Positions 25,850 to 40,639 of a stretch of 64,000 nucleotides of DNA are shown piece by piece. The stretch lies in contig NZ_JACIBU010000001.1 in NCBI RefSeq assembly GCF_014195485.1, forward strand, positions 372,001 to 436,000, given 5' to 3'. This DNA is from Modestobacter versicolor (GTDB lineage: Bacteria; Actinomycetota; Actinomycetes; Mycobacteriales; Geodermatophilaceae). The notes beneath the pieces were generated by a model that was not told where the DNA came from, searched no databases, and was given only the letters and a program-made list of their open reading frames with translations. Within the stretch, counting starts at the first letter, position 1. Every line of letters starts with the position of its first letter. A program made the position numbers and the translations under genes.

Positions 25850-26737
25850 TCAGAGCAGGTCGGGCTCGACCGAGCGCCGCACCGTGCGCGGGTCGACCGT
25901 GCTCACCGACGGGGCGCCCAGCGCCCGGCTGATCCCGCGGGCGGTGGCCGCGAGCACCGGCACCAGCGCGTGGCTCTTCGTCGACTCCTGCCGCACGGTG
26001 ACGCCGAGGGCGGCGACCACCTCGTCGCCGGGCCCGCGGACCGGCACCGCCACGGCCAGCGCGCCGGCCGGCGGCAGCTGGTTCTCGGCGATCGCGACAC
26101 CGGTGCGCCGCACCTCGGCGAGCACCCGGCGGAGCTGGTCGACGTCGGTGATCGTGTTGGCGGTGAACCGCCGGAGCGGGCTGGAGAGCACCTCGTCCTG
26201 CACCTGGGGGGAGGCGTAGGCCAGCAGCACCTGGCCGGTGCCGGTGGCGTGCAGCGGCCACCGCCCGCCCAGCCGGGAGAGCACCCGGATGGCGCCGCGC
26301 GCCCGCAGCGCCTCGACGTAGACGACGTCGTGCCCGTCGCGGACGGCGAGGTGGATGTTGGCCCGGGTGGCGTGGTGCAGGTCGTCGAGGAAGGGCAGCG
26401 CCAGCTCGCGCAGCTGCAGCCCGTGCGGGGCGAGCGCGCCGAGCTCCAGGAGCCGCAGCCCGATGCCGTAGCGCCCGTCGGAGCCGCGCTCCAGCGCCCC
26501 CCACTGCCGCAGCTCGCCGACCAGCCGGTGGGTGGTGGTCAGCGACAGCCCGGTGCGGCGGCTGATGTCGGACAGCGAGAGCCAGGCGTGCTCGGGCCCG
26601 AAGGCGGCGAGCACCGCCAGCGTGCGGCCGGCGGCCGTGGCGGGGGAGCTGCCGGGGGGCGTGGCCCCGGTCGAGGACGGGCGGCCGGTGCGGGGAGCAC
26701 CGGCGGTGGTCGGCTGCAGCGGCATCGTTGCCGGCAT
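25850..26737 (-). CDS. IclR-family transcriptional regulator
   Basis: 295 aa. The winged helix-turn-helix spans about residues 35-95 (recognition region LSLSDISRRTGLSLTTTHRL at 53-71), followed by the IclR effector-binding domain (FLDDLHHATRANIHLAVRDG, later VAVPVRGPGDEVVAALGVTV). A ~30-residue Thr/Pro/Gly-rich N-terminal tail precedes the HTH. The start ATG 26737 has AGGAGG 5 nt upstream; the longer open frame above it has no RBS. It is divergent from the UGSC/SDR operon and most likely controls it and itself through palindromes in the shared region. The effector is unknown, probably a pathway intermediate. Confidence 0.93.
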   Translation of the reverse strand: MPATMPLQPTTAGAPRTGRPSSTGATPPGSSPATAAGRTLAVLAAFGPEHAWLSLSDISRRTGLSLTTTHRLVGELRQWGALERGSDGRYGIGLRLLELGALAPHGLQLRELALPFLDDLHHATRANIHLAVRDGHDVVYVEALRARGAIRVLSRLGGRWPLHATGTGQVLLAYASPQVQDEVLSSPLRRFTANTITDVDQLRRVLAEVRRTGVAIAENQLPPAGALAVAVPVRGPGDEVVAALGVTVRQESTKSHALVPVLAATARGISRALGAPSVSTVDPRTVRRSVEPDLL

Positions 26738-26797
26738 GTCGTCCTCCTGCTGGCGGGGTGGGCGCACCGGCCAGTGGCCGGTGGCGGTGATCACAAT

Positions 26798-27000: not shown

Positions 27001-27069
27001 ATGCCGCACCCCATCGCGACGGACCCGCGCCGCTCGGCGCAGCGCCCGGTGCCGGGCCGGGTCGCCTGA
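27001..27069 (+). CDS. 22-codon leader ORF coupled to the UGSC operon
   Basis: A small ORF of 22 sense codons (peptide begins MPHPIATDPRRS and ends PVPGRVA) starts at ATG 27001, about 6 nt after a strong GAGGAGGA ribosome binding site. Its stop overlaps the next start as TGATG. All 21 codons after the ATG end in G or C, as in the real genes here. The large gene behind it has no RBS of its own, so its translation probably depends on the leader. It could be a true small protein, a coupling device, or an alternative N-terminal region lost by frameshift. It has no known homologue that I recognise. Confidence 0.5.
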   Translation: MPHPIATDPRRSAQRPVPGRVA

Positions 27070-27638
27070 TGGCCACCCTCGCCGACGTCCTCGACCCCAC
27101 CGGCCGCTCGGCCGTCCGGGCGGTCAGCAGCACGCGCGCACCCCGGCGGGCCGACCTCGCCGGCGCGCGGGTCGGCCTGCTGGAGAACACCAAGCACAAC
27201 GCCGCCCTGCTGCTCGACGAGATCGCCACCCTGCTGGAGCGGGACCGCGGGGCGGTGACGGTGCTGCGCCGCACCAAGACGGCGTTCGCGCTGCCGATGC
27301 CGCAGGAGCAGCTCGACGAGCTGGTCCGCGAGTGCGACGTCGTGCTCGTCGGGGTGGGCGACTGCGGGTCGTGCAGCGCGGCCGCGGTCGCCGACGGCAT
27401 CGCGCTGGAGCGGGCCGGTGTGCCCGCGGCGGTCATCTGCTCCGACGCCTTCACCACCACGGCGAGCGCGATGGCCGAGGTGCAGGGCGACCCCGGCTAC
27501 GCCTACCTGACCACCCCGCACCCGGTGGCCGTGCTCGCCCCGGACGCGGTCGCCGAGCGCGCCGTCCAGCTGGCGCCGCAGGTCATCGGCACGGTCCTCG
27601 GCGACGGCCCGGCCGAGCTGCGGGAGCGGGCCTCGTGA
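27069..27638 (+). CDS. UGSC-family (selenoprotein-like) redox protein, copy 1
   Basis: 189 aa. The segment VVLVGVGDCGSCSAAAVADG contains C99-G-S-C102. In the family known as UGSC (seleno)proteins this position is Sec-Gly-Ser-Cys in some members; here both are Cys (TGC codons, no in-frame TGA). Other conserved parts are LLENTKHNA, SDAFTTTASAMAEVQG and PGYAYLTTPHPVAVL. The function of the family is unknown; the CxxC/UxxC motif suggests redox or thiol chemistry. It heads the operon, overlaps the leader ORF, and overlaps the partner gene by 4 nt. A paralogue is at 30446-31000. Confidence 0.75.
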   Translation: MATLADVLDPTGRSAVRAVSSTRAPRRADLAGARVGLLENTKHNAALLLDEIATLLERDRGAVTVLRRTKTAFALPMPQEQLDELVRECDVVLVGVGDCGSCSAAAVADGIALERAGVPAAVICSDAFTTTASAMAEVQGDPGYAYLTTPHPVAVLAPDAVAERAVQLAPQVIGTVLGDGPAELRERAS

Positions 27639-28720
27639 CGGCGGTCGACACCCCGCGGCTGGAGGCCGACCCGGACGCCGCCTGGGCCGCCGTCGAGCAC
27701 GGCTACGAGCAGGGCTGGTCCGACGGGCTGCCGGTCGTGCCGGCCACCCGCTCGCTGGTCGACCGCTTCCTCGCCACCGTCGACCGGTCGCCCGAGGAGG
27801 TGATCGGCTCGCTGGAGCACCTGCACCGCACCGTCACCGTCGAGCTGGCCGCCATCAACGCCGCGATGGCCGGCTGCCGGCCGGAGTACTTCCCGGTCGT
27901 GCTCGCCGCCTGGGAGGCGATCCAGACCGACCGGGCCGCCGGGGGCGGCGGCTGGCAGAGCACCAGCGGGCCCTCGCCGCTGCTGGTCGTCAACGGCCCG
28001 GTGCGCCAGCAGCTCGGCTTCAACTCCGCCGGCGGCGTCTTCGGCCCGGGGTTCCGGCCGAACATGACCGTCGCCCGCGCGCTGGGGCTCATCGTCCGCA
28101 ACGCCCTCGGCGTGGTGCCGCACGGCTTCGAGCAGGCCACCCAGGGCCTGCCGGGCCGCTGGCAGGTCTGCCTGGCCGAGAACGAGGAGGAGAGCCCCTG
28201 GGAGCCGATGGCGGTGGAGGGCGGCCTGGACGCCGGCACCGACGCCGTCTCGGCCATGCTCACCCGCACCGTCGAGTACGTCGACAACCGGCACACCGCC
28301 GACCCCGAGCAGCTGCTGGCCGACTTCGCCGACACCATCTCGCGCAGCGGCGCGCTGATCTTCGCCCACGCCCCCGCCGGCATCGTCTTCTGCCCCGAGC
28401 ACGCCCAGCTGCTGGCCGGTGCCGGCATGAGCCGGGCCGACGTCCGGGCCTGGCTGGTCGAGCGGTGCGGCCGCACCAAGGCCGACCTCGCCCGGGTCGG
28501 CAAGGACGGCGTCGGCCCCAACGGCGTCCGCTTCGCCGACGGCACCACCGCACCGGAGGACTTCGACCCGCTGTTCAGCGCGGCCGGCCCCGAGGTGCTG
28601 CCCATCGCGGTCGCCGGGGCCCGCAACGCCGGCATCTCCATGGTCGTGCGCGTCTTCGCCGGCTGGTCCGCCCGTTCCGTGCCGATCGTCGGCCGCACCA
28701 CCCCAGGGAGCCCCTCGTGA
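27635..28720 (+). CDS. Uncharacterised partner of UGSC protein, copy 1
   Basis: 361 aa, soluble, without signal peptide or recognised domain. It shares long segments with the 350-aa protein at 30997-32049: GW[ST]DGLPVVPAT near residue 28, MAGC[RL]PEYFP with C81, the Gly/Ser-rich block STSGPSPLLVVNGPVR followed by an AGGV.GPGFR turn, and GRWQ[VL]C[LI].ENEE with C179. The two Cys positions are conserved between the copies. GTG 27635 overlaps the UGSC stop (GTGA). The constant pairing of the two genes in both modules suggests a two-subunit enzyme. The family name and reaction are not known to me. Confidence 0.7.
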   Translation: MTAVDTPRLEADPDAAWAAVEHGYEQGWSDGLPVVPATRSLVDRFLATVDRSPEEVIGSLEHLHRTVTVELAAINAAMAGCRPEYFPVVLAAWEAIQTDRAAGGGGWQSTSGPSPLLVVNGPVRQQLGFNSAGGVFGPGFRPNMTVARALGLIVRNALGVVPHGFEQATQGLPGRWQVCLAENEEESPWEPMAVEGGLDAGTDAVSAMLTRTVEYVDNRHTADPEQLLADFADTISRSGALIFAHAPAGIVFCPEHAQLLAGAGMSRADVRAWLVERCGRTKADLARVGKDGVGPNGVRFADGTTAPEDFDPLFSAAGPEVLPIAVAGARNAGISMVVRVFAGWSARSVPIVGRTTPGSPS

Positions 28721-29592
28721 CCGATCCGCTCGACGACCCCTTCGGCCCTGCCGGCGACCCGTGGATGGCCGGCCGCACCGCGCTGGTCACCGGCGGCGGG
28801 CAGACCGGTGAGGAGCCCGGCGTCGGCTACGCGATCAGCCGGGTCTTCGCCGCGCACGGTGCCTCGGTCGCCGTCCTGGACCGCGACCCGGCCGCCGCCG
28901 ACCGCACGGTCGCGGCGATCACCGCGGCCGGCGGCACCGCCGTCCCGGTGATCGCCGACGTGCTCGACGACGACGCCTGCCGGGCCGCCGTCGCCGACGC
29001 CGAGAAGGCGCTGGGCGGGCTGGACACGCTGGTCAACAACGTCGCCGTCGGCGACCGCGCCGGCGTGTTCGAGGTGACGCCGGAGCGCTTCCACCAGCTG
29101 ATGGACCTCAACCTGACCACCGCCTGGCAGATGACCCGGCACGCCGCCCCCCGGCTGCCGCGCGGCGGGGCGATCGTGAACATCAGCTCCGTCGGCGTGC
29201 GGGCCGGTGGCCCCGGGATGGTCTACAACCTGGCCAAGGCCGGGCTGGAGAACCTCACCGTCGGTGCCGCCAACACCCTCGGCCCGCAGGGCGTGCGGGT
29301 GAACTGCGTGCAGGTCGGCGCCATCTGGGGCGCGTTCGCCGCGGCCAACATGCCCCCGCACATGCGCGAGGTGCGCAAGGGCTGGATCGGGCTGGGTACC
29401 GAGGGCACCCCCTGGGACATCGCCCAGGCCGTGCTCTTCCTGGCCAGCGACCACGCCCGCTGGGTGTCCGGGCAGGTGCTGTCGGTCGACGGCGGCCCGT
29501 CCACCGGCCGCCCGGGCAAGCCGGCGGCGGCCGTGCTCACCGAGACGCCGCCGCCGTCGACGCCCGAGGGCACCCCGCTGGTGCAGGCATGA
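28717..29592 (+). CDS. SDR-family oxidoreductase
   Basis: 291 aa. An NAD(P)-binding TGGGQTGEEPGVGYAIS motif (with a longer loop than usual between TG and GxG), DVLDDDACR after strand 4, LVNNVAVGD, and the catalytic Ser...Tyr-x3-Lys as SSVGV...YNLAKAG. The C-terminal ~30 residues are a Pro/Thr-rich extension beyond the usual SDR end (VLSVDGGPSTGRPGKP). It probably oxidises or reduces an alcohol/ketone of the cluster's substrate. GTG 28717 overlaps the partner gene stop by 4 nt; the next SDR overlaps its stop. Confidence 0.9.
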   Translation: MTDPLDDPFGPAGDPWMAGRTALVTGGGQTGEEPGVGYAISRVFAAHGASVAVLDRDPAAADRTVAAITAAGGTAVPVIADVLDDDACRAAVADAEKALGGLDTLVNNVAVGDRAGVFEVTPERFHQLMDLNLTTAWQMTRHAAPRLPRGGAIVNISSVGVRAGGPGMVYNLAKAGLENLTVGAANTLGPQGVRVNCVQVGAIWGAFAAANMPPHMREVRKGWIGLGTEGTPWDIAQAVLFLASDHARWVSGQVLSVDGGPSTGRPGKPAAAVLTETPPPSTPEGTPLVQA

Positions 29593-30449
29593 GCGGCACC
29601 CGGGTCGCCCTGGTCACCGGCTGCGGCAAGCCCGACGGGATGGGGCAGGCCATCGCCCGCCGGCTCGCCGGGCAGGGCCTGGCCGTCGTCGTCACCGACC
29701 TGCAGCCGGCCGGGGTGCCCAACGCCCGGCAGGAGGAGCGGTCCGCCGGCTGGGGCGGGGTGCACGCGCTGGCCGCCGAGATCACCGACGCCGGCGGCGA
29801 CGCGCTGGCCGTGCTCGGCGACGTCAGCGACCCCGCCGACGCCACCGCCATGGTCGCCGCCGCGGTCGACCGGCACGGCCGGCTCGACGTGCTGGTCAAC
29901 AACGCCGCCGCCCCGCAGGGCCCCGACCGGGCCGACGTGGCCGACGTGCCGATCGAGGTCTTCGACCGGGTGCTCGCGGTGAACCTGCGCGGCCCGTGGC
30001 TGATGAGCCAGGCCGCGGTGCCGGTGATGCGGGCCCAGCGGTCCGGCCGGATCGTGAACATCTCCTCGATGGCCGGGCTGACCGCGGCGCCCTTCTCCGG
30101 CGCCTACTCGGCGTCCAAGGCCGGCGTCATCGGCATGACCCGCGCGCTCGCCATGGACCTCGGTCCGTGGGGGATCACGGTGAACGCGCTCTGCCCCGGG
30201 CTGGTCGCCACCAGCCGGGCGTTCCTCTCCGCCGCACCGGACGTCGACGAGGCGGAGCTGATGGCCCAGCGCGGCCGCAACATCCCGGTGGGCCGCGCCG
30301 GGCAGGCCGAGGACATCGCCGCGGCGGTCGCCTTCCTCGGCTCGCCGGACGCCGGCTACATCACCGGCCAGGCGATCCCCATCGACGGCGGCGGGCTGAG
30401 CCCCTTCCCGCTGCGCAGGCCCGAGCCCGCCCTGGAGGCGACCCGATGA
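29589..30449 (+). CDS. SDR-family oxidoreductase
   Basis: 286 aa. Classical SDR: VALVTGCGKPDGMGQAIARR, LVNNAAAPQGP, SSMAGLTAAPFSGAYSASKA with catalytic Ser, Tyr and Lys, and ITGQAIPIDGGG near the end. The insertion after strand 2 (LQPAGVPNARQEERSAGWGG) is longer than usual. Substrate unknown. The ATG overlaps the previous SDR stop and the gene overlaps the second UGSC gene, so it lies between the two UGSC modules in one translation-coupled chain. Confidence 0.92.
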   Translation: MSGTRVALVTGCGKPDGMGQAIARRLAGQGLAVVVTDLQPAGVPNARQEERSAGWGGVHALAAEITDAGGDALAVLGDVSDPADATAMVAAAVDRHGRLDVLVNNAAAPQGPDRADVADVPIEVFDRVLAVNLRGPWLMSQAAVPVMRAQRSGRIVNISSMAGLTAAPFSGAYSASKAGVIGMTRALAMDLGPWGITVNALCPGLVATSRAFLSAAPDVDEAELMAQRGRNIPVGRAGQAEDIAAAVAFLGSPDAGYITGQAIPIDGGGLSPFPLRRPEPALEATR

Positions 30450-31000
30450 CCGAGCTCTTCGACCGCATCATCGACCCGACGGTCGGCCCGGCCGGTGACG
30501 CCCGCGGCCGGACGGCGCTGGCCGCCCGCCCCGGCGACCTCACCGGGCTGCGCCTGGGCCTGCTGGTCAACACCAAGCGCAACGCCGCGGAGTTCGTCGA
30601 GGAGGTCGCCGGCGTGCTGGCCGCCCAGCACGGGATGACCCCGTCGATCACCCGCACCAAGCCGAGCATCGTGCACCCGGCGCCGGCCGAGATGGTCGAG
30701 GAGCTGCGCGCGGCCAGCGACGTGGTCGTCGTCGGGGTGGGGGACTGCGGCTCCTGCAGCGCCTCCGCGATCGCCGACGGGCTGCAGCTGGAGGCGGCCG
30801 GCGTGCCCACCGTCGTCGTCGTCAGCGACGCGTTCCGGGTCAGCGCCGACGCGATGGCCGAGCTGCAGGGCACCCCGGGGTACCAGTACGTGGCCACCCC
30901 GCACCCGGTGGCCAACCTGTCCCGCGCGGGGCTGCGCGACCGGGCCGCCGCGGCCGCCCCGGAGATCTTGGCGCTGCTCACCGGGCCGGCGCCCCGGTGA
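30446..31000 (+). CDS. UGSC-family (selenoprotein-like) redox protein, copy 2
   Basis: 184 aa paralogue of the protein at 27069. The motif VVVVGVGDCGSCSASAIADG holds C101 and C104 (both TGC). Shared with copy 1: LLVNTKRNA, VSDAFRVSADAMAELQG and PGYQYVATPHPVANL. The N-terminal 30 residues differ between the copies, which may set partner or substrate choice. The ATG overlaps the SDR stop and the gene overlaps its partner by 4 nt, repeating the arrangement of copy 1. Confidence 0.75.
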   Translation: MTELFDRIIDPTVGPAGDARGRTALAARPGDLTGLRLGLLVNTKRNAAEFVEEVAGVLAAQHGMTPSITRTKPSIVHPAPAEMVEELRAASDVVVVGVGDCGSCSASAIADGLQLEAAGVPTVVVVSDAFRVSADAMAELQGTPGYQYVATPHPVANLSRAGLRDRAAAAAPEILALLTGPAPR

Positions 31001-32049
31001 CCACGACCACCGCCGACCCGCTGGCCCTCGCGCGGCAGGCGATCGAGCACTGTCACGCGCAGGGCTGGACCGACGGTCTGCCGGTCGTCCCGGCCACCGA
31101 GGACGCCGTCGCGGAGTTCCTGGCCACCGTCGACCGCGACCCCGACGAGGTGATCGGCGCCCAGTCGCACCTCGACCGGCGGGTGACCGTCGCCCAGGCC
31201 GCGGTCAACGCGGTGATGGCCGGCTGCCTGCCCGAGTACTTCCCGCTGGTGCTCGCCGCGTGGACCGCGCTCACCGGTGAGCCCGCCGCCCAGGGCGGCG
31301 CCTGGCAGTCGACCAGCGGGCCCTCGCCGCTGCTGGTGGTCAACGGCCCGGTGCGCCACCGGCTCGGCGTCAACTGCGCCGGCGGGGTGCTCGGCCCCGG
31401 CTTCCGCGCGAACGCGACCGTGCCCCGGGCGCTCGGGCTGCTGGTGCGCAACGGCTTCGGCATCCGACCGCAGCAGCTCGAGCAGGCCACCCAGGGCGTG
31501 CCCGGCCGCTGGCAGCTGTGCATCGGCGAGAACGAGGAGCTCTCCCCGTGGGAGCCGTTCAGCGTCGGCGGTGGGGTGCCGGCCGGCACGGACGCCGTCT
31601 CGGCGATGCTCATCCGCGACTGCGAGTACGTCGACAACCGGCACACCGAGGACGTCGAGGCGCTGCTGCGCGACCTCGCCGACACCCTCGCCCGCACCGG
31701 CGCCTACCTGGGCATCAAGCACTCCACCGGAGGCTTGGTCCTCGGACCCGAGCACGCGCAGCAGCTGGCCGCCGCCGGCTACGGGCGGGCCGACGTCCAG
31801 CAGTGGCTGTTCGACGCCGCCGTGCGCAGCCAGGCTGACCTGCGCGCCGTGGGCAAGGAGTCGCACGACGCCGAGCCCGGCCCGGACCCGATGCACATGA
31901 TGCCGTCGCCGGCCGAAATCCCGGTGATCGTCGCGGGTGCGGCCAACGCCGCCATCTCCATGGTCTTCCGCCCGTTCGGCTGGTCCACCTGGTCCGGCCG
32001 CTCCGTCCCCGTCCCCGTTTCCCTGACAGCCCAGGAGGCACCCGCATGA
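30997..32049 (+). CDS. Uncharacterised partner of UGSC protein, copy 2
   Basis: 350 aa paralogue of the 361-aa protein at 27635, with C77 in MAGCLPEYFP and C175 in GRWQLCIGENEE at the equivalent positions, plus an extra Cys in GVNCAGGV where copy 1 has Ser. The C-terminal part differs (a His/Met-rich DPMHMMPSPAEIPV segment). It ends with a similar motif (NAAISMVFR against NAGISMVVR). GTG 30997 overlaps the UGSC copy 2 stop. Function unknown; most likely a heteromeric enzyme with the UGSC protein. Confidence 0.7.
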   Translation: MTTTTADPLALARQAIEHCHAQGWTDGLPVVPATEDAVAEFLATVDRDPDEVIGAQSHLDRRVTVAQAAVNAVMAGCLPEYFPLVLAAWTALTGEPAAQGGAWQSTSGPSPLLVVNGPVRHRLGVNCAGGVLGPGFRANATVPRALGLLVRNGFGIRPQQLEQATQGVPGRWQLCIGENEELSPWEPFSVGGGVPAGTDAVSAMLIRDCEYVDNRHTEDVEALLRDLADTLARTGAYLGIKHSTGGLVLGPEHAQQLAAAGYGRADVQQWLFDAAVRSQADLRAVGKESHDAEPGPDPMHMMPSPAEIPVIVAGAANAAISMVFRPFGWSTWSGRSVPVPVSLTAQEAPA

Positions 32050-32278: not shown

Positions 32279-33208
32279 GTGGAGGTCAGCCTCGAGGGCA
32301 AGGTCGCCCTGGTCACCGGTGTCGGGCCGAACATCGGCAGCGGCATCGCGCTGGCGCTGTCCCGGTACGGCGCCAAGGTGGCCTGCAACGACGTCGACGA
32401 CGCCGTGATCAAGACCGCGATGGCCCGGATCGAGCGCAACGGCGGCGAGGCGATGGCCGCCCCGGGCGACGTCACCGACGAGGCCGCCGTGCAGGGCTAC
32501 GTCGACGCCGTCCTGGAGCGGTGGGGCCGGATCGACATCCTGGTCAACAACGCCGCCATGCTCGGTGGCCGCGGGGTGCTGGACGAGACCGCGGCGACCT
32601 TCGAGCGGTCGATCAAGGTCTCCGGCCTCGGGTACTTCCTGAACACCAAGATCGTCGGGCGGGCGATGGCCGAGCGGGGCATCCGCGGCTCGATCGTCTG
32701 CATCTCGTCGTCCAACGGCTGGAACGGCTCGGCCGGGGTGATCGCCTACGCGTTCAACAAGGGAGGGGTGAACAACTTCGTCCGGGCCGCGGCGATGGAC
32801 CTCGCGCCCTACGGCATCCGGGTCAACAGCTACACGCCGACCGCGCCGACCGTCGACAACCCGGAGCTGCTGGCCGAGTTCGCGACGTCCGGGCGCCCGG
32901 CCGACATGCTCAACGCCGGCCGCAAGGGCGGTGGCCTCGGCGGGGACGCCGGCGAGGAGGAGTGGCGCCGGCCGGCCCGCTGGTCGGGGGAGCGGCCGCC
33001 GCTGGTGCCGATGGGCAGCACCGGGACGCCGACCGACATCGGCCACGCGGTCGCCTGGCTGTGCTCGGACTACGCGCGGCTGATCACCGGCACCGACCTG
33101 GTCGTGGACGGCGGGGCGCGGGCGAAGAACTTCGCCTACTTCCCGGCCGACCCCGAGGACCTCGCCGGCCCGGTCCCGCTGATCCCGCTGGACTCCACCA
33201 CCCTCTGA
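32279..33208 (+). CDS. SDR-family oxidoreductase
   Basis: 309 aa. NAD(P)-binding VTGVGPNIGSGIALAL, LVNNAAMLGGRG, Ser-Ser-Ser-Asn then YAFNKGG giving the catalytic Tyr-x3-Lys. A long insertion near residues 205-235 (DMLNAGRKGGGLGGDAGEEE) precedes the C-terminal ITGTDLVVDGGAR. The C-terminal tail NFAYFPADPEDLAGPVPLIP exceeds the usual SDR end. GTG 32279 is chosen over upstream starts because it gives the family N terminus just after the small CxxC gene. It ends the operon; a strong hairpin follows. Confidence 0.9.
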   Translation: MEVSLEGKVALVTGVGPNIGSGIALALSRYGAKVACNDVDDAVIKTAMARIERNGGEAMAAPGDVTDEAAVQGYVDAVLERWGRIDILVNNAAMLGGRGVLDETAATFERSIKVSGLGYFLNTKIVGRAMAERGIRGSIVCISSSNGWNGSAGVIAYAFNKGGVNNFVRAAAMDLAPYGIRVNSYTPTAPTVDNPELLAEFATSGRPADMLNAGRKGGGLGGDAGEEEWRRPARWSGERPPLVPMGSTGTPTDIGHAVAWLCSDYARLITGTDLVVDGGARAKNFAYFPADPEDLAGPVPLIPLDSTTL

Positions 33209-33290: not shown

Positions 33291-34205
33291 CTAGGGGACC
33301 AGGTCGGTGAGGCGGGGGGAGGGGAGCCGGTTCTCCGGGGCGTAGACCGGGTGGCTGGTCAGGAACGGGATCGCGGCGGCCCGGGCCTCGTCGATCGGCT
33401 CGTCGGGGAACGCGGCCAGCGTCGTCTCGAACCGCTCGCGCACTCCCTCGCGGAACTCCGGGTGCGTGAGGATGAACAGGTCGTTGCGCCGGACGCCGGC
33501 CAGCACGCGCTCGCCGGCCTCGACGTAGCTCATGTACGGCTGGTCCTTGGCCCGCTCGAGGAACTCCGTGGGCGGCGGGGTGTAGCCGCTGTCGCCGTAC
33601 TCGGTGGGCCGGCGGCTGACCGCCGAGGCGATGTTGCTGTGCACCGGGCCCGGGCAGTACGCGGAGACGCCGATGCCCTCGGGGGCCAGCTCGATGTGCA
33701 GCGCCTCGGACAGCGCGATCACCGCGGCCTTGGTCATGCTGTACAGCCCGGCGACGATCGGCATCAGCCCGGCCATGGACGTCGTGGTGACCACGTGCCC
33801 GCCCTCGCCGCGGCGCTGCATGTGCGGCACGAACGCGCGGATGCCGTTGCCCACCCCGCGGATGTTGACGTCGATCAGCCAGTCCCAGTCGCTGGCGGTC
33901 GCGCCCATCACCGGCCCGGTCAGCCCGATGCCGGCGTTGTTCACCAGGACGTCGACCCGGCCGAACCGCTGCACGGTCTCCGCCGCGGCCTCCTCGACCG
34001 CCTCGGCGTTGGTGACGTCCAGCTGCACCGCGGTGACGTCGAGCCCGGCGGCAGCGAACTCGGCCCGGGTCTCGTCGATGTGCTCGGGCTTGCGCCCGCT
34101 GATCACGACCTGCATCCCGGCCCGGGCGAAGGCCAGCCCGATCCCGCGGCCGATGCCGCTGGAGCCACCGGTGATGAAGGCGACCTTGCCCTCGACGTCC
34201 TGCAT
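33291..34205 (-). CDS. SDR-family oxidoreductase
   Basis: 304 aa. ITGGSSGIGRGIGLAFARAG, LVNNAGIGLTGP, then TTSMAG...YSMTKAAV with the catalytic Ser, Tyr and Lys. The C-terminal half after residue 200 is extended and hydrophilic (YGDSGYTPPPTEFLERAKDQ), as in SDRs acting on larger substrates. ATG 34205 is the start, with GAGAGGACGAG upstream. It is the last gene of a four-gene - strand operon with amidohydrolase and CoA-transferase, suggesting an alcohol/ketone step of the same pathway. Confidence 0.92.
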   Translation of the reverse strand: MQDVEGKVAFITGGSSGIGRGIGLAFARAGMQVVISGRKPEHIDETRAEFAAAGLDVTAVQLDVTNAEAVEEAAAETVQRFGRVDVLVNNAGIGLTGPVMGATASDWDWLIDVNIRGVGNGIRAFVPHMQRRGEGGHVVTTTSMAGLMPIVAGLYSMTKAAVIALSEALHIELAPEGIGVSAYCPGPVHSNIASAVSRRPTEYGDSGYTPPPTEFLERAKDQPYMSYVEAGERVLAGVRRNDLFILTHPEFREGVRERFETTLAAFPDEPIDEARAAAIPFLTSHPVYAPENRLPSPRLTDLVP

Positions 34206-34228: not shown

Positions 34229-35107
34229 TCAGCCGCCGAGCCCGAGGAGCCGGGCGGCGTTGTCCTTCATGACCTTGGGCCGGACGTGCTCCTTGATCGA
34301 CAGCCCGTCGAAGTCCTTGATCCAGCGCTCCGGGGTGATGACCGGGAAGTCGGAGCCGAAGAGGACCTTGTCCTGCAGCAGCGAGTTCGTGTACTGCACC
34401 AGCTGCGGCGGGAAGTACTTGGGCGACCAGCCGGACAGGTCGATGTACACCTGCGGCTTGTGGGTCGCCACGGCCAGCGCCTCGTCCTGCCAGGGGAACG
34501 AGGGGTGCGCCAGGATGATCGGCATGTCGGGGAAGTCGACCGCGACGTCGTCGATGTGCATCGGGTTGGCGTACTTGAGCCGGATGCCGCCCCCGCCGCG
34601 AGTGCCGGCGCCCACGCCGGTCTGCCCGGTGTGGAACAGCGCGACCAGCTGGTGCTCGGCGATGACCTCGTACAGCGGGTAGGCCGACCGGTCGTTCGGG
34701 AAGAAGCCCTGGGTCTGCGGGTGGAACTTGAACCCGCGGACCCCGTGCTCCTCGATCAGCTTCCGGGCCTGCCGGACGCCTGCCGCGCCCCGGGCGGGGT
34801 CGATGCTGGCGAAGGGGATCAGCACGTCGGCGTGCTCGGCGGCCTGGTCGGCGACCTCCTCGTTGGTGGGCACCATCTCGTCACCGGTCTGGGAGATGCT
34901 GTCCACGCCGAAGACGACGGCGGCCATCGTCCGCTCGCGGTAGTAGGCGGCCAGCTCGGGCACCGTGTACTGGGGCATCGAGCCGATGCCGAAGTAGGCA
35001 CCCATGTCGTCGGCCTCGCTGCCCTCGCGGGGTGGGGCGGAGACCGAGCGGTGCACGTGGGTGTGCACGTCGATGGCGGTGATCGCGTTCAGGTCGATGC
35101 CGGTCAC
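34229..35107 (-). CDS. Amidohydrolase-family (ACMSD-like) protein
   Basis: 292 aa. Metal-site motifs of the amidohydrolase_2 branch are visible: AIDVHTHVH at the N terminus, GFKFHPQTQGF, ILAHPSFPW with a metal His, and FGSDFPV with the conserved Asp near the C terminus. Relatives are decarboxylases or C-C/ring hydrolases (for example aminocarboxymuconate-semialdehyde decarboxylase type). The substrate is unknown. The start GTG 35107 overlaps the CoA-transferase B stop (GTGA); the longer frame upstream is overlap only. Confidence 0.88.
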   Translation of the reverse strand: MTGIDLNAITAIDVHTHVHRSVSAPPREGSEADDMGAYFGIGSMPQYTVPELAAYYRERTMAAVVFGVDSISQTGDEMVPTNEEVADQAAEHADVLIPFASIDPARGAAGVRQARKLIEEHGVRGFKFHPQTQGFFPNDRSAYPLYEVIAEHQLVALFHTGQTGVGAGTRGGGGIRLKYANPMHIDDVAVDFPDMPIILAHPSFPWQDEALAVATHKPQVYIDLSGWSPKYFPPQLVQYTNSLLQDKVLFGSDFPVITPERWIKDFDGLSIKEHVRPKVMKDNAARLLGLGG

Positions 35108-35778
35108 GGGTGCAGGTCCTCGGTGTAGGGGGCGGCGGTGCGCGCCGCGACGTCGGCCGGGGTGACGCCGGGGGCGCACTCCACCAGCCGCAGGGTGCCG
35201 TCGACGACGTGGAACACGGCGAGGTCGGTGTAGATCCGGGTCACGCACTGCTTGCCGGTGAGCGGCATCGTGCACTCGGGGACGACCTTCGAGCGGCCGG
35301 AGCGGTCGACGTGCTCCATGGTCACCCACACCTGCGGGGTGCCGGCGACGAGGTCCATCGCCCCGCCCACCGCGGGGTTGCGGCCGGGCACGTACCAGTT
35401 GGCCAGGTCGCCGCGGGCGGAGACCTGCAGCGCGCCGAGCACCGTGACGTCGAGGTGCCCGCCGCGGATCATCGCGAACGACATCGCGGAGTCGGTGATC
35501 GCCGCCCCGCTCATCAGCGTGATCGGCTGCTTGCCGGCGTCGGTCAGGTCCAGGTCGCCCTCGCCGTCGGGGGCCGGGCCCAGGCCGAGCACCCCGTTCT
35601 CGGCGTGCAGCACGACCTCGACGCCGTCCGGGATGAACAGCGGGACGGCGAGCGGGATGCCGACGCCGAGGTTGACGACGTACCCGTCCTGCAGGTCCTG
35701 GGCCAGCCGCTGGGCGATGCCCTCCCGGCTGCGGCCGGTGATCGGCGGCGCCGGGGTGGTGGCGAGCGTGTCGGTCAT
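35104..35778 (-). CDS. CoA-transferase subunit B
   Basis: 224 aa. Family I CoA-transferase beta subunit: GYVVNLGVGIPLAVP near residue 33, and HAENGVLGLGP with the catalytic glutamate that forms the CoA thioester; GGAMDLVAG and KVVPECTMPLTG follow. With subunit A it moves CoA between carboxylic acids (3-oxoacid/succinyl type). The ATG overlaps the subunit A stop, so both subunits are made together. Here it probably activates or recycles an acid produced by the cluster. Confidence 0.94.
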   Translation of the reverse strand: MTDTLATTPAPPITGRSREGIAQRLAQDLQDGYVVNLGVGIPLAVPLFIPDGVEVVLHAENGVLGLGPAPDGEGDLDLTDAGKQPITLMSGAAITDSAMSFAMIRGGHLDVTVLGALQVSARGDLANWYVPGRNPAVGGAMDLVAGTPQVWVTMEHVDRSGRSKVVPECTMPLTGKQCVTRIYTDLAVFHVVDGTLRLVECAPGVTPADVAARTAAPYTEDLHP

Positions 35779-36533
35779 GCGGGGGTCCTCGCGATCAGCC
35801 GGCTGTCGTCGGGGGTGGGGCGGGGGGTGCCGGAGAGGAACACGTCGTCGACGAACACCCCGGGCAGGTGGACGTCGTCGGGGTGCAGCTCGTCGACCGC
35901 CACGAGGTTCTCGACCTCGGCGAAGGTGTGCCGGCCGGCCATCCCGGCGAGCGGGTTGAAGTTCCGGGCGGAGAGCCGGAAGCGCAGGTTGCCCTTGCGG
36001 TCGCCCTGGTGGGCCTTGACCAGCCCGAAGTCGGCGACGATCCCGGTCTCCAGCACGTACTCGCGGCCGTCGATGAGCCGGTGCTCCTTGGCCGGCACGT
36101 GCTCGGCCACCCCGCCCTCGGGGGCGTAGCGGAGGGTGAAGCTGCCGTCGGCGAGCATCGTGCCGGCGCCGGACGGGGTGAAGAAGGCCGGGATGCCCGA
36201 GCCGCCGGCCCGCATCCGCTCAGCCAGCGTGCCCTGCGGCACCAGCTCCAGCTCCACCTTGCCGGCGAAGTAGTCGTCGTAGAACTCCTGCAGGATCGGG
36301 AAGGACGCCGTCACCCGGCGCAGCCGGCCCTCGTGCAGCAGCCGGCCCACCCCGGTGAAGTCGTGGCCGACGTTGTTCACGTACACGTGCAGGTCGCGCT
36401 TGCCGAGCTCGCAGAGGGCGTCCAGCAGGCGGTCGGGCCGCCCGGAGCTGCCGAAGCCGCCGACGGCGATGGACGCGCCGTCGGGCACCTGGTCCACCAC
36501 GGACAGCACGTCCTCGCGGAACTTGTCGATCAC
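35775..36533 (-). CDS. CoA-transferase subunit A
   Basis: 252 aa. Family I CoA-transferase alpha subunit: glycine-rich SIAVGGFGSSGRPDRLLDAL near the N terminus, a VGRLLHEGRLRRV segment, LVPQGTLAERMRAGG, and GVPAFF-like GIPAFFTPSGAGT. The GGFGSSGRP loop differs from the common GGFGxxGxPE form. The start is GTG 36533 with AGAGGAC upstream; an open frame runs far above it but without conserved sequence. First gene of the - strand operon, divergent from the alcohol dehydrogenase operon. Confidence 0.93.
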   Translation of the reverse strand: MIDKFREDVLSVVDQVPDGASIAVGGFGSSGRPDRLLDALCELGKRDLHVYVNNVGHDFTGVGRLLHEGRLRRVTASFPILQEFYDDYFAGKVELELVPQGTLAERMRAGGSGIPAFFTPSGAGTMLADGSFTLRYAPEGGVAEHVPAKEHRLIDGREYVLETGIVADFGLVKAHQGDRKGNLRFRLSARNFNPLAGMAGRHTFAEVENLVAVDELHPDDVHLPGVFVDDVFLSGTPRPTPDDSRLIARTPA

Positions 36534-36870: not shown

Positions 36871-37980
36871 ATGAGCATGACCACCCGAGCCGCCGTCTGC
36901 CGGGAACCAGGCCTCCCGTGGGAGGTCACCGAGCTCGAGCTCGACGACCCGCGCGCCAACGAGGTGCGGATCAAGTTCATGGCCGCCGGGCTGTGCCACT
37001 CCGACGACCACATCCAGAAGGGCGACGCGCAGATGCGCTTCCCCGTCGTCGGCGGCCACGAGGGCGCCGGCATCGTGGAGGCCGTCGGCGACGGCGTCAC
37101 CCGGGTCAAGGTCGGCGACCACGTCGTCTGCTCGTTCATCCCCGCCTGCGGCAAGTGCCGCTACTGCTCCACCGCCCGGCAGAACCTCTGCGACGAGGGG
37201 AAGAACGCCTCGACCGGCGAGTTCCCCGACGGCACCTTCCGCTTCCACCAGAACGGCCAGGACTTCGGTGGCCTCTGCGTGCTCGGCACGTTCGCCGAGC
37301 GCGCGGTGGTCAGCGAGTACTCGGTCATCCCGATCCCCGACGACATCCCCTTCGAGGTCGCCTCGCTGGTCGGCTGCGGGGTGCCGACCGGCTGGGGCAG
37401 CGCGGTGCACGCCGCCGGGGTGCGGGCCGGCGAGACCGTGGTCGTCTTCGGCGCCGGCGGGGTCGGCAGCAACGCGGTGCAGGGCGCCCGGTTCGCCGGC
37501 GCGCAGCACGTCGTCGTCGTCGACCCGGTCGAGTTCAAGCGGGAGATGGCCACCGTCTTCGGTGCCACGAGCACCTTCGCCACCGCCAAGGAGGCGCAGG
37601 ACTTCGTCAACGAGGTGAGCTGGGGCGAGCTCGCCGACCACGCGATCATCACCGTCGGCGTCCTGCACGACGAGGTCATCGCCGACGCGCTGAAGATCGT
37701 CGGCAAGGCCGGCCAGGTGACGGTGACCGCCGTCGGCAACGGCTGGGTCGACGAGCACCCGGGCATGCTGATCGGCTACCAGCGGCGCATCCAGGGCGCG
37801 ATCTTTGGTGCCTGCAACCCGCTGTTCGACGTCCCCCGGCTGCTGAGCCTCTACCGCACCGGCGACCTCAAGCTGGACGAGCTGATCACCCGCACGTACC
37901 GGCTCGACGAGGTCAACCAGGGCTACCAGGACATGTTGGACGGCAAGAACATCCGCGGCGTGATCATCCACGAGCACTGA
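36871..37980 (+). CDS. NDMA-dependent (mycofactocin-type) alcohol dehydrogenase, copy 1
   Basis: 369 aa zinc alcohol dehydrogenase. Catalytic zinc ligands are in GLCHSDDH and GGHEGAG, the structural zinc cysteines in ACGKCRYCSTARQNLC, and the nucleotide site in VVFGAGGVGSNAVQGARFAG. The sequence pattern (DDIPFEVASLVGCGVPTGWG, ADALKIVGKAGQVTVTAVG) is that of N,N-dimethyl-4-nitrosoaniline-dependent dehydrogenases, which keep NAD(H) bound and pass electrons to mycofactocin. No mycofactocin synthesis genes are in the window. ATG 36871 begins the + strand operon; aldehyde dehydrogenase follows after 13 nt. Confidence 0.92.
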   Translation: MSMTTRAAVCREPGLPWEVTELELDDPRANEVRIKFMAAGLCHSDDHIQKGDAQMRFPVVGGHEGAGIVEAVGDGVTRVKVGDHVVCSFIPACGKCRYCSTARQNLCDEGKNASTGEFPDGTFRFHQNGQDFGGLCVLGTFAERAVVSEYSVIPIPDDIPFEVASLVGCGVPTGWGSAVHAAGVRAGETVVVFGAGGVGSNAVQGARFAGAQHVVVVDPVEFKREMATVFGATSTFATAKEAQDFVNEVSWGELADHAIITVGVLHDEVIADALKIVGKAGQVTVTAVGNGWVDEHPGMLIGYQRRIQGAIFGACNPLFDVPRLLSLYRTGDLKLDELITRTYRLDEVNQGYQDMLDGKNIRGVIIHEH

Positions 37981-37993
37981 AGGACTGCAGACC

Positions 37994-39472
37994 ATGACGA
38001 TCGCCCCTCCCGGCCCGGTGGCCGGTTCCTCGCTCATCATCGACGACGCCCAGCTGATCGGCGGTGACTGGGTCCGCGCCGCGGACGGCCGCACCATCGA
38101 CGTCATCAACCCCGCCACCGGCGAGGTCCTCGCCCGGGTGCCCCGCGGCGGTGCCGACGACGTCGAGGCCGCGGTGCGCGCCGGCGAGGCCGCGTTCCCC
38201 GCCTGGCGGGACACCAACGCCACCGCCCGCGGCGCGCTGATCACCCGCTGGGCCCAGCTCATCGACGAGCACATCGCCGACCTCGACGCGCTGGAGTCGC
38301 AGGAGGTCGGCCGGCCCAGCTGGGGCCCGCCGCCGATGTCCCGGATCCTGAACTTCATCGCCGGCCAGGCCGACAAGGTGCAGGGGCTGACCCTGCCCAC
38401 CTACACCCCCGACGCGATCGGCCTGACCCTCCGCGAGCCCTACGGCGTGGTGGGCGCGGTCATCCCGTGGAACGCCCCCGCGCCGATGTTCGTCAACGAC
38501 GTCGGCCCGGCCATCGCCGCCGGCAACACCATCGTCATCAAGCCGGCCGAGGACGCCCCGCTCACCGCCCTGGCGCTGGCCAAGCTGGCCCTCGAGGCCG
38601 GCATCCCGCCGGGCGTGGTCAACGTGGTCACCGGCTACGGCCACGAGGCCGGCGCGGCGATCCCGGCGCACCCGCGGATCCGGCGGATGAGCTTCACCGG
38701 CTCGCCGGACACCGGCTCGCTGGTGATGGCCGCCTGCGCCAAGAACCTCACCCCGCTGCACCTGGAGCTGGGCGGCAAGTCGCCGCAGGTGATCCTCGCC
38801 GACGCCGACCTGGACGCCGCGATCCCGGCCATCGCCATGGGCATCACGCTCAACACCGGCCAGATCTGCGCCGCCGGCTCCCGGGTCGTGGTCGACCGGA
38901 GGATCCACGCCGAGGTCGTGCAGCGGCTGGCCGAGCGGATGTCGCAGGTCAAGGTCGGCCCCTGGCACCAGCAGGTCAACATGGGCCCGCTGATCAACGC
39001 CAAGCAGCAGGAGCGGGTGCTCAAGTACATGCAGCTGGGCCAGGAGGAGGGCGCCGACCTGGTGCTCGGCGGCGGCCGCCCCTCCGGCGCGGAGTTCGAG
39101 CGCGGCTTCTTCGTCGAGCCGACGCTGTTCGACAACGTCGACCCGTCGATGCGGATCCACCAGGAGGAGATCTTCGGGCCGGTCCTGGGGGTCACCCCGG
39201 TCGCCGACGCCGACGAGGCCCTCGCGGTCGCCAACGGCACCGACTACGGCCTGGTCGCCTCGGTCTGGACCCGCGACATCGGCCGCGCCGTCCAGTTCAG
39301 CCGCGGGCTGCAGGCCGGCCAGGTGGCGGTCAACGCCGCGCTGGGCGCCGGCGTCATCGGCGGGCCGTTCGGCGGCTACAAGCGCAGCGGCTTCGGCCGC
39401 ACCATGGGCGCCGACGCCGTCCTGGACTACACGCAGGTCAAGACCGTCTCCCTCCGGGGCACCGGTGCCTGA
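37994..39472 (+). CDS. Aldehyde dehydrogenase family protein
   Basis: 492 aa. NAD-binding VVGAVIPWNAPAPMFVND, general-base Glu in LHLELGGKSPQ and catalytic C292 in NTGQICAAGSRVVV, then EEIFGPVLGV and the C-terminal GGPFGGYKRSGFGR. It oxidises an aldehyde to the acid with NAD(P)+. Its place between two NDMA-type alcohol dehydrogenases points to alcohol-to-acid conversion in one operon. Length and motifs are complete. The ATG lies 13 nt after the previous stop with AGGAC upstream. Confidence 0.95.
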   Translation: MTIAPPGPVAGSSLIIDDAQLIGGDWVRAADGRTIDVINPATGEVLARVPRGGADDVEAAVRAGEAAFPAWRDTNATARGALITRWAQLIDEHIADLDALESQEVGRPSWGPPPMSRILNFIAGQADKVQGLTLPTYTPDAIGLTLREPYGVVGAVIPWNAPAPMFVNDVGPAIAAGNTIVIKPAEDAPLTALALAKLALEAGIPPGVVNVVTGYGHEAGAAIPAHPRIRRMSFTGSPDTGSLVMAACAKNLTPLHLELGGKSPQVILADADLDAAIPAIAMGITLNTGQICAAGSRVVVDRRIHAEVVQRLAERMSQVKVGPWHQQVNMGPLINAKQQERVLKYMQLGQEEGADLVLGGGRPSGAEFERGFFVEPTLFDNVDPSMRIHQEEIFGPVLGVTPVADADEALAVANGTDYGLVASVWTRDIGRAVQFSRGLQAGQVAVNAALGAGVIGGPFGGYKRSGFGRTMGADAVLDYTQVKTVSLRGTGA

Positions 39473-39520
39473 GCCGACTCCCGCCGCCGTCCCCGCTCCC
39501 GCCCCCAGGAGGGTCTCCCG

Positions 39521-40639
39521 ATGAGCATCACCACCCACGCCGCCATCGCCCGGGGCCCGCACCTGGGCTGGGAGATGGTCGACCTCCAGCTGGACGACCC
39601 GAAGGCGCACGAGGTGCGGGTGAAGTTCGCCGCCTCCGGCCTCTGCCACTCCGACGACCACATCACCCAGGGCGACGCCCCGGTGCGCTTCCCGATGGTC
39701 GGCGGGCACGAGGGCGCCGGCATCGTGGAGTCGGTCGGTCCCGACGTCCGCCGGGTCAAGCCCGGCGACCGGGTCATCTGCTCCTACATCCCGGCCTGCG
39801 GTTCCTGCCGGCCGTGCTCGACCGGTCACCAGAACATGTGCGTCAAGGGCCTCAACGCCGGCAGCGGCATGTTCCTGGACGGCACCTTCCGCTTCCACCT
39901 CGGCGACGAGGACCTCGGCGGCTTCTGCTCGCTGGGCACCTTCTCCCAGTACGCGGTGGTGTCGGAGTGGGCGGTCGTGCCGCTGGCCGACGACATCCCG
40001 TTCGAGGTCGCCAGCCTCGTCGGCTGCGGGGTGCCCACCGGCTGGGGCTCGGCGGTCTACGCCGCCGGCGTCCGCCCCGGCGACACCGTCGTGGTCTTCG
40101 GCTCCGGCGGCGTCGGCAGCAACGCCGTCCAGGGCGCCCGGTACGCCGGCGCCAAGAACGTCGTCGTCGTCGACCCGGTGGAGTTCAAGCGGGAGATGGC
40201 CACCGTCTTCGGCGCCACCAACACCTTCGCCTCGGCGAAGGAGGCGCACGACTTCGTCGTGGAGACGACGTGGGGCCAGCTGGCCGACCACTGCATCCTC
40301 ACCCCGGGCGTGGTGACCGAGGAGATCGTCAACTCCGCGGTCCAGATGACCGGCAAGGGCGGCAAGGTCACCATCACCGGCGTCGGCAAGATCAACGAGA
40401 AGGCCGTGCACTTCCACGCCGGCGCGCTCATCGGGTACCAGCGGCAGGTCCGCGGCGCGCTGTTCGGCGACTGCAACCCGCTCTACGACATCCCGAAGCT
40501 GCTCGGGCTGTACCGGGCCGGCGACCTCAAGCTCGACGAGCTGGTCACCCGCACGTACGCCCTGGACGAGGTCAACCAGGCCTACCAGGACCTGACCGAC
40601 GGCAAGAACATCCGCGGCGTCATCGTCCACGACATCTGA
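39521..40639 (+). CDS. NDMA-dependent (mycofactocin-type) alcohol dehydrogenase, copy 2
   Basis: 372 aa, a close paralogue of the 36871 gene: GLCHSDDHITQGD, GGHEGAGIVESVG, ACGSCRPCSTGHQNMC zinc cysteines, VVFGSGGVGSNAVQGARYAG, and near-identical blocks such as VVDPVEFKREMATVFGAT and GYQRQVRGALFGDCNP. Both copies probably act on related alcohols or on both ends of a diol. It is preceded by AGGAGGG and separated from the aldehyde dehydrogenase by 48 nt. Two hairpins follow the stop. Confidence 0.92.
   Translation: MSITTHAAIARGPHLGWEMVDLQLDDPKAHEVRVKFAASGLCHSDDHITQGDAPVRFPMVGGHEGAGIVESVGPDVRRVKPGDRVICSYIPACGSCRPCSTGHQNMCVKGLNAGSGMFLDGTFRFHLGDEDLGGFCSLGTFSQYAVVSEWAVVPLADDIPFEVASLVGCGVPTGWGSAVYAAGVRPGDTVVVFGSGGVGSNAVQGARYAGAKNVVVVDPVEFKREMATVFGATNTFASAKEAHDFVVETTWGQLADHCILTPGVVTEEIVNSAVQMTGKGGKVTITGVGKINEKAVHFHAGALIGYQRQVRGALFGDCNPLYDIPKLLGLYRAGDLKLDELVTRTYALDEVNQAYQDLTDGKNIRGVIVHDI

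Follow-up and report, generated by a model that had tools for sequence, protein, structure and literature searches.

In glycine reductase and D-proline reductase, the selenocysteine (Sec) protein, GrdB or PrdB (PF07355), works together with a larger subunit. The present analysis concerns UGSC, another family of Sec proteins, for which we propose a comparable arrangement. It starts from a window of 64,000 nucleotides (nt), the whole stretch of Modestobacter versicolor DNA that was analysed (assembly GCF_014195485.1, contig NZ_JACIBU010000001.1, positions 372,001 to 436,000). In this window two UGSC genes with cysteine (Cys) in place of Sec, each followed by a gene for a larger protein termed here the partner, form two modules within a chain of six genes at 27069-32049. 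The family of this organism, Geodermatophilaceae, is reportedly one in which UAG encodes Sec, as described by Mukai et al. in 2016, and a paper of 2008 on a UGSC fusion protein is said to be the work of Zhang and Gladyshev.

UGSC has figured in the literature from 2008 or earlier as an abundant family of selenoproteins, which the excerpted papers list and count without a function. In the excerpts of PMC2398784, a UGSC protein is fused to a conserved domain, 'Unknown_1', that is called limited to a few aquatic organisms. Unknown_1 is probably the partner family, whereas the partner itself is present in many phyla and in Halobacteria. Beyond this fusion, the excerpts consulted, from openly available papers on selenoproteins, describe neither the partner nor its pairing with UGSC. 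That UAG encodes Sec in Geodermatophilaceae, also in UGSC, has been published before, with three such genomes in the excerpts of PMC5330540. For GrdB-like proteins, the excerpts of PMC10838667 propose that a pair cleaves the C-F bond of monofluoroacetate, and such chemistry is therefore thought to reach beyond amino acids.

Organisation of the six-gene chain

The six genes lie on the + strand in the order UGSC1, partner1, SDRa, SDRb, UGSC2 and partner2. All five junctions are 4-nt overlaps (GTGA or ATGA), which suggests that the genes form one translationally coupled chain. UGSC1 (27069..27638, 189 amino acids (aa)) and UGSC2 (30446..31000, 184 aa) both exceed the curated cut-offs of the UGSC families, with 214.8 and 206.2 bits for PF24696 (cut-off 25 bits) and 177.3 and 162 bits for NF041046 (cut-off 125 bits). 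Both are Cys forms: they carry CGSC, their codon at the Sec position (C99 in UGSC1) is TGC and neither frame contains a stop. With Sec written as C, all 11 members of an alignment show the [U/C]GSC motif. Partner1 (27635..28720, 361 aa, with C81 and C179) and partner2 (30997..32049, 350 aa, with C77 and C175) start with GTG, and neither matches a family in Pfam or NCBIfam at E up to 1. Between the modules stand two short-chain dehydrogenase (SDR) genes, SDRa (28717..29592, 291 aa) and SDRb (29589..30449, 286 aa), the latter scoring 227.5 bits, above the cut-off, for NF005559. Coordinates and profile searches agree with the layout given in a preliminary description of the sequence, that is, two CGSC genes, each overlapped by 4 nt with a gene for a protein of about 355 aa and no family, and two SDR genes in between.

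The assignment of the partner to a known family was pursued through sequence searches of Pfam, NCBIfam and the PDB, which gave nothing or noise; a search of 108 aligned members of the partner family against Pfam returned scattered matches only (best E 0.011). UGSC found no credible match by sequence in the PDB, and Rfam and tRNA scans of the 64-kb window gave no match.

Pairing and fusion of UGSC with the partner

How regular is the association of the two proteins? Among 296 sampled genomes of Actinomycetota, the phylum to which the window belongs, UGSC exceeded its cut-off in 29 genomes and the partner profile in 30, and all 29 genomes with UGSC hold both. A same-strand partner lies within 500 bp of 45 of the 49 UGSC genes over the cut-off (two of 51 rows, in G185 and G239, fell below it and were left out), and 45 of 51 partner matches have a same-strand UGSC within that distance. 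The partner comes first in 31 of the 45 pairs and UGSC in 14. One in-frame TGA interrupts 37 of the 49 UGSC genes, an in-frame TAG two, and ten have no stop; 36 of the 37 TGA (Sec) forms are paired within 500 bp. The preliminary description had proposed that the two proteins occur together and had asked whether Sec forms also pair. These counts bear out the proposal and answer the question in the affirmative, and the converse situation, a partner found mostly without UGSC, does not describe the sample, in which 29 of the 30 partner genomes have UGSC.

A wider scan of named genomes used the partner as bait, and the best 80 of 577 relatives were kept. These loci span Actinobacteria, Chloroflexi, Proteobacteria, Acidobacteria, Rokubacteria, Poribacteria and others. 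UGSC lies within the stretch in 74 of the 80, and on the same strand within 250 nt of the partner gene in 69. Sec and Cys exchange at one codon: the 81 UGSC matches in these loci have TGA in 62 cases, TAG in one and TGC in 17, one match being cut off at this place. The motif that follows is mostly GSC, with GGC in seven and GAC in two. Plasmids carry the pair as well, annotated as adjacent genes in Natrinema, Halalkalicoccus, Arthrobacter and Roseovarius and visible by translation in Variovorax, Paracoccus and Acidovorax. Distances among UGSC proteins correlate with those among partners (r=0.88 over 80 pairs, the best of 2000 permutations reaching 0.10); since linked genes share their history, this correlation speaks for co-inheritance only.

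The two proteins also occur as one polypeptide. One-frame fusions of UGSC and partner with TGA at the Sec place are found on an Acidovorax plasmid, in Rokubacteria (L086) and in two Betaproteobacteria (L109 and L110). The 120 matches listed for the L110 fusion are 403-458 aa long and each covers 74-80% of it; PF24696 is found in 112 of them and the UGSC motif in the first 60 residues of none. The missing motif fits gene callers that would start after the TGA, and suggests that Sec fusions are mis-called in databases as proteins of about 420 aa. Further fusions, of 574 and 561 aa, occur on plasmids of Sporomusa and Vibrio (L024 5335-7059 and L025 5335-7020); genes for aconitase X and DUF126 lie near them. 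As UGSC and the partner are usually encoded side by side and sometimes fused, they probably constitute one enzyme.

Neighbours of the pair are varied. A Pfam tally of 140 of them, based on crude heuristic gene calls, revealed no dominant family; alcohol dehydrogenase domains were counted 7-8 times and SDR domains 5-6 times. In several loci the pair is accompanied by a small protein (L009 9237-9518, L022 7006-7818, L051 9079-9327). The L009 copy belongs to no Pfam or NCBIfam family, finds matches in 10 of the 80 best loci with phmmer and resembles, by eye only, the NifU-like end of the Arthrobacter UGSC; Pfam calls NifU in this fused domain only (27.2 bits against a cut-off of 27). It may be a third component. 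Partners without UGSC occur as tandem pairs (L050 6858-9044; G173:C272) and are perhaps a UGSC-free branch of the partner family.

Age and conservation of the two modules

UGSC1 and UGSC2 are 47% identical and the two partners 60%, and the DNA of the modules is 72% identical over 1378 nt, far beyond chance. In the partner and UGSC trees alike, module 1 clusters with Geodermatophilus sabuli and G. ruber (support 100/99 for the partner, 97/94 for UGSC), to whose copies partner1 is 85-86% identical. Module 2 groups in both trees with a Streptosporangiaceae metagenome-assembled genome (MAG; 100/99 for the partner, 99/94 for UGSC) and two Pseudonocardiaceae.

UGSC is present in 54 of 112 genomes sampled from the window's own family, Geodermatophilaceae. 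Two stop-free copies no more than 13 kb apart occur in seven of these (M. versicolor itself, G000, and G363, G364, G365, G398, G402 and G403), and in all seven the partner adjoins both copies; the assignment of the Cys copies to types 1 and 2 covers G364, G398, G402 and G403. The clusters of G402, G398, G403 and G364 (L141-L144, in that order) all have SDRa and SDRb after module 1 and a further dehydrogenase, SDRc, after module 2. L141 has exactly the gene order of the window, L142 and L143 hold an extra alcohol dehydrogenase between the modules, and in L144 this space is occupied by CoA-transferase genes, an alcohol-aldehyde-alcohol dehydrogenase series and an IclR gene. In the Streptosporangiaceae MAG (L034), module 2 is accompanied by SDRc, another dehydrogenase, SDRd, an amidohydrolase and a CoA-transferase; a second, cut UGSC at this locus is slightly nearer to UGSC1 (52% against 49% over 98 residues). 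One Cys module of G368:C34 has a short, stop-bearing partner fragment about 10 kb away (54918-55049, 65049-66661), perhaps the remains of a second module.

Because the trees group each module with its own orthologues and each keeps its own SDRs in L141-L144, the modules are old and not recent copies. They are ancient paralogues, separately conserved parts of one cluster, which here stand in one overlapping chain. The word 'duplication' in the preliminary description is in this respect misleading, given that the orthologues of each module are found in other genera and that the distinct SDRs recur in four related clusters.

Selenocysteine forms in the genome and family

Outside the window the M. 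versicolor genome contains two further UGSC and two further partner genes. Both UGSC copies (G000:C1:91271-91777, - strand, and G000:C1:800585-801091, + strand) have TAG exactly at the Sec codon, and one of them lies 3.4 kb from a partner gene, with genes for a small protein, a flavin adenine dinucleotide (FAD) oxidoreductase and a dihydroxy-acid dehydratase in between. A tRNA-Sec with a CUA anticodon is encoded at G000:C1:1687097-1687188 (64.3 bits in Rfam; ARAGORN names it tRNA-Pyl) and adjoined by selA and selB. In these features the genome is like the published UAG-Sec system of Geodermatophilaceae, from which the window copies differ in being Cys forms. Among 95 UGSC matches in the 54 family genomes, counted by eye, a single TAG interrupts the frame in 72, the other 23 are without one, and TGA does not occur; TAG here means one stop inside the match, its position having been read in the two M. 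versicolor copies and in G. ruber (L054) only. The split suggests that UAG-encoded Sec is the rule for UGSC in this family. The bacterial Sec insertion sequence (SECIS) was considered as a means to tell the forms apart, but a crude search for the hairpin discriminates poorly, as it accepted 61 of the 62 Sec forms and also 12 of the 17 Cys forms. Seven of the 62 Sec forms contain the string GGCCAGT, which is absent from all 17 Cys forms.

Conserved residues and fold of the partner

C81 and C179 of partner1 (P0001) align with C77 and C175 of partner2 (P0004), whose numbering is used below. Residues D26, G27, P29, A75, G76, C77, P83, G117, R137, R144, L148, N152, E178 and W185 are invariant in a 108-row alignment of the family. 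In a larger set, C77 is Cys in 209 of 211 sequences and C175 in 199, being replaced by Val in seven and Leu in five; the closest homologue (P0005, 93% identical) is without C175. The two Cys positions that had been noted as kept in both partners do align, but the second is not kept throughout the family. C175 therefore appears dispensable, and the alignments point to C77, rather than the pair, as the cysteine of interest.

An AlphaFold model of partner2 (predicted local distance difference test (pLDDT) 94.3) was available for structural comparison. A Foldseek search with the partner model returned 14 chains at E<=0.001, all of Leishmania fumarate hydratase (best E 3.0e-04, probability 0.93), followed by the two-subunit fumarase of M. 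jannaschii at 1.9e-03. Membership of the partner in the class I fumarase family (PF05681) found no backing in sequence, with no match in 108 members and an hhalign probability of 0.7%.

Comparison with GrdB/PrdB

A profile alignment (hhalign) of UGSC with the Sec domain of GrdB/PrdB, represented by 13 GrdB/PrdB-like sequences and with Cys written at the Sec position of both profiles, gave 84.5% probability over a local stretch of 92 columns, below every family cut-off, and set Sec on Sec. Its score was 42.3; of 40 decoys made by shuffling columns, none scored above 21.5. In this local match an 'E..GIP' stretch after the Sec positions is aligned as well, and the alignment hints weakly at a remote similarity. 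The window proteins themselves fall outside GrdB/PrdB, scoring 16.6 against a cut-off of 300 bits for TIGR04483 and 13.4 against 602.2 for TIGR01917, with no PF07355 match at E up to 1. The partner family gives no match to Gly_reductase (PF09338), and the partner has no similarity to UGSC or GrdB profiles. The M. versicolor genome gave no match to PF07355 or to PF09338 (the pyruvoyl subunit GrdE/PrdA), the control genomes being silent in both searches. The PF07355 search did, however, detect GrdB/PrdB-like proteins in 11 of 12 other genomes, which are genomes of partner loci (L114-L129), and in the 13 proteins that were read the frame runs on through a TGA at the Sec place.

Discussion

What might such a pair do? 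The reading that we favour, with moderate confidence, is that each module encodes a two-subunit enzyme with a Sec or Cys nucleophile, possibly reductive, and that the two modules serve two steps or two specificities of one catabolic pathway. We infer a complex in which UGSC would be the small nucleophile subunit. Its Sec, or its Cys (C99 of UGSC1), would immediately precede a helix of a domain in which beta strands and alpha helices alternate, and the resolving thiol would come from the other Cys of CGSC, three residues further along. The partner would be the large subunit, responsible for substrate binding and activation, with an active site probably lined by C77, D26, G27, P29, R137, R144, N152, E178 and W185. 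By analogy with GrdB/PrdB, the selenolate or thiolate could attack a carbon beside a carbonyl group and displace a group linked through C-O, C-N or C-S. The resolving Cys would free the product and leave a selenenyl-sulfide or disulfide on UGSC, which the thiol system of the cell would then reduce. SDRa and SDRb for module 1, and SDRc for module 2, could make the ketone that the enzyme needs, whilst the CoA-transferase and the alcohol and aldehyde dehydrogenases of the cluster may finish the products; the two modules would then be non-redundant. The preliminary description had spoken of a two-subunit redox enzyme. Two subunits are likely from pairing and fusions; the redox part rests on the Sec/Cys motif and the remote GrdB/PrdB likeness. 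Two fusions without the CGSC cysteines and a C175 that seems dispensable do not fit so simple a picture.

Several observations weigh against this reading. The Sporomusa and Vibrio fusions have MGTS in place of CGSC and retain C77 and C175 in the partner half, and in L086, a Sec fusion, C77 is replaced by Ala, so that the CGSC and C77 sites can be lost separately; C175 itself is variable, as described above. Seven of the 80 best loci are without a same-strand UGSC within 1 kb (L091 has one on the other strand, whereas L050, with two tandem partners, L056, L088, L097, L106 and L113 have none), and in G173 the partner occurs alone. The best structural matches of the partner are fumarases and not a reductase, and the likeness to GrdB/PrdB is local, lies under all family cut-offs and was obtained with Cys substituted for Sec. 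TrxB-like genes were seen in three of ten plasmid loci opened (one of them unannotated) against two of the 80 best loci, and thioredoxin genes are unsupported as a constant neighbour. Finally, the model of the L110 fusion is a confident two-domain unit by its scores (pLDDT 90.5, predicted template modelling score (pTM) 0.90), and in our judgement a domain of 180 residues placed arbitrarily would not score so high; but it was folded from a flawed alignment that set 55 UGSC rows against the partner region, so that the UGSC half rested on three sequences. The UGSC half of this model is an alternating beta/alpha domain, and most matches listed for the model belong to receiver-like, B12-binding-like or other domains of the Rossmann type. 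No thioredoxin or fumarase title stands among the 50 rows listed (VIA list), an absence that excludes nothing.

The fumarase matches invite a different explanation, in which the two proteins form a lyase or hydro-lyase. The partner would then be distantly related to the alpha domain of class I fumarase and carry out an elimination or hydration, with UGSC in the role of a regulatory or cluster-supporting subunit. The Leishmania and M. jannaschii hits, the dihydroxy-acid dehydratase or aconitase X genes in some partner loci and the ability of the Sporomusa and Vibrio fusions to do without CGSC are all in its favour. Class I fumarases have three Cys ligands, whereas the partner has one invariant and one frequent Cys, and overall we judge this explanation unlikely. 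We give similarly little credence to the idea that the pair has a general function as thiol peroxidase or disulfide reductase, protecting the cell or recycling thiols, and does not carry out a catabolic step. The excerpts of PMC2398784 do place UGSC among thiol oxidoreductases and guess at a thioredoxin-like fold; trxB and trxA lie directly upstream of partner and UGSC in Arthrobacter, where UGSC also bears the NifU-like domain. However, family members stand in varied catabolic and transport clusters, their spread is patchy (over the cut-off in 29 of 296 genomes), the window cluster holds two copies beside dehydrogenases and a CoA-transferase, and the modelled UGSC half has an alternating beta/alpha fold and mostly receiver-like, B12-binding-like and other Rossmann-type matches.

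Hardly credible is the notion that module 2 arose recently as a redundant tandem copy and raises dosage only. Two homologous modules with 72% DNA identity in one gene chain would be in keeping with it; but both trees split the modules, one going with Geodermatophilus and the other with the Streptosporangiaceae MAG, and both recur with distinct SDRs in L141-L144. On the strength of two trees and conserved synteny we reject a recent tandem duplication. Returning to the nucleophile enzyme that we favour, its boldest extension is a long shot: UGSC and partner might represent a class of catabolic Sec/Cys reductases, widespread but undescribed, with the two proteins either separate subunits or fused. 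A neighbouring SDR would turn an alcohol into a ketone by oxidation, and the selenolate or thiolate would cleave the C-O, C-N or C-S bond next to it. Glutathione-dependent beta-etherases act after their SDRs in like manner; here the nucleophile would be protein-bound, with no glutathione, and the two modules might handle two stereoisomers, or two successive bonds, of a single substrate.

With a near-constant partner, the fusions and ancient modules with their own dehydrogenases, UGSC is no longer an isolated orphan but part of a defined, probably two-component enzyme open to expression, crystallisation and assay. Cys versions such as those of the window avoid the problem of Sec insertion in vitro and make enzyme function testable. 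The partner family, although almost always beside UGSC, is missing from the copies of Pfam and NCBIfam that were searched.

Surrounding gene cluster

The IclR-type regulator gene (25850..26794, - strand; TIGR02431 143.1 bits, below the cut-off of 284.75) is divergent from module 1 and recurs in L141-L144 and L036, as do SDRa and SDRb, which keep the same place with module 1. SDRc (32279..33208, + strand, 309 aa) follows module 2 directly after a gap of 229 nt and stands beside that module in L141-L144 and L034. On the - strand lie SDRd (33291..34205, 304 aa; also in L141-L144 and L034) and an Amidohydrolase_2 gene (PF04909, 34229..35107; in L141-L143 and L034, not listed for L144). Next to them on that strand are subunits B (35104-35778) and A (35775-36533) of a 3-oxoacid CoA-transferase, which exceed the cut-offs of the TIGR02428/TIGR02429 pair and are shared with L141-L144, L036 and L034. 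Beyond these, on the + strand, two NDMA-dependent alcohol dehydrogenase genes (36871-37980 and 39521-40639, both above the TIGR03989 cut-off) flank an aldehyde dehydrogenase gene (37994-39472), and this order of 36871..40639 is kept in L144 and L036.

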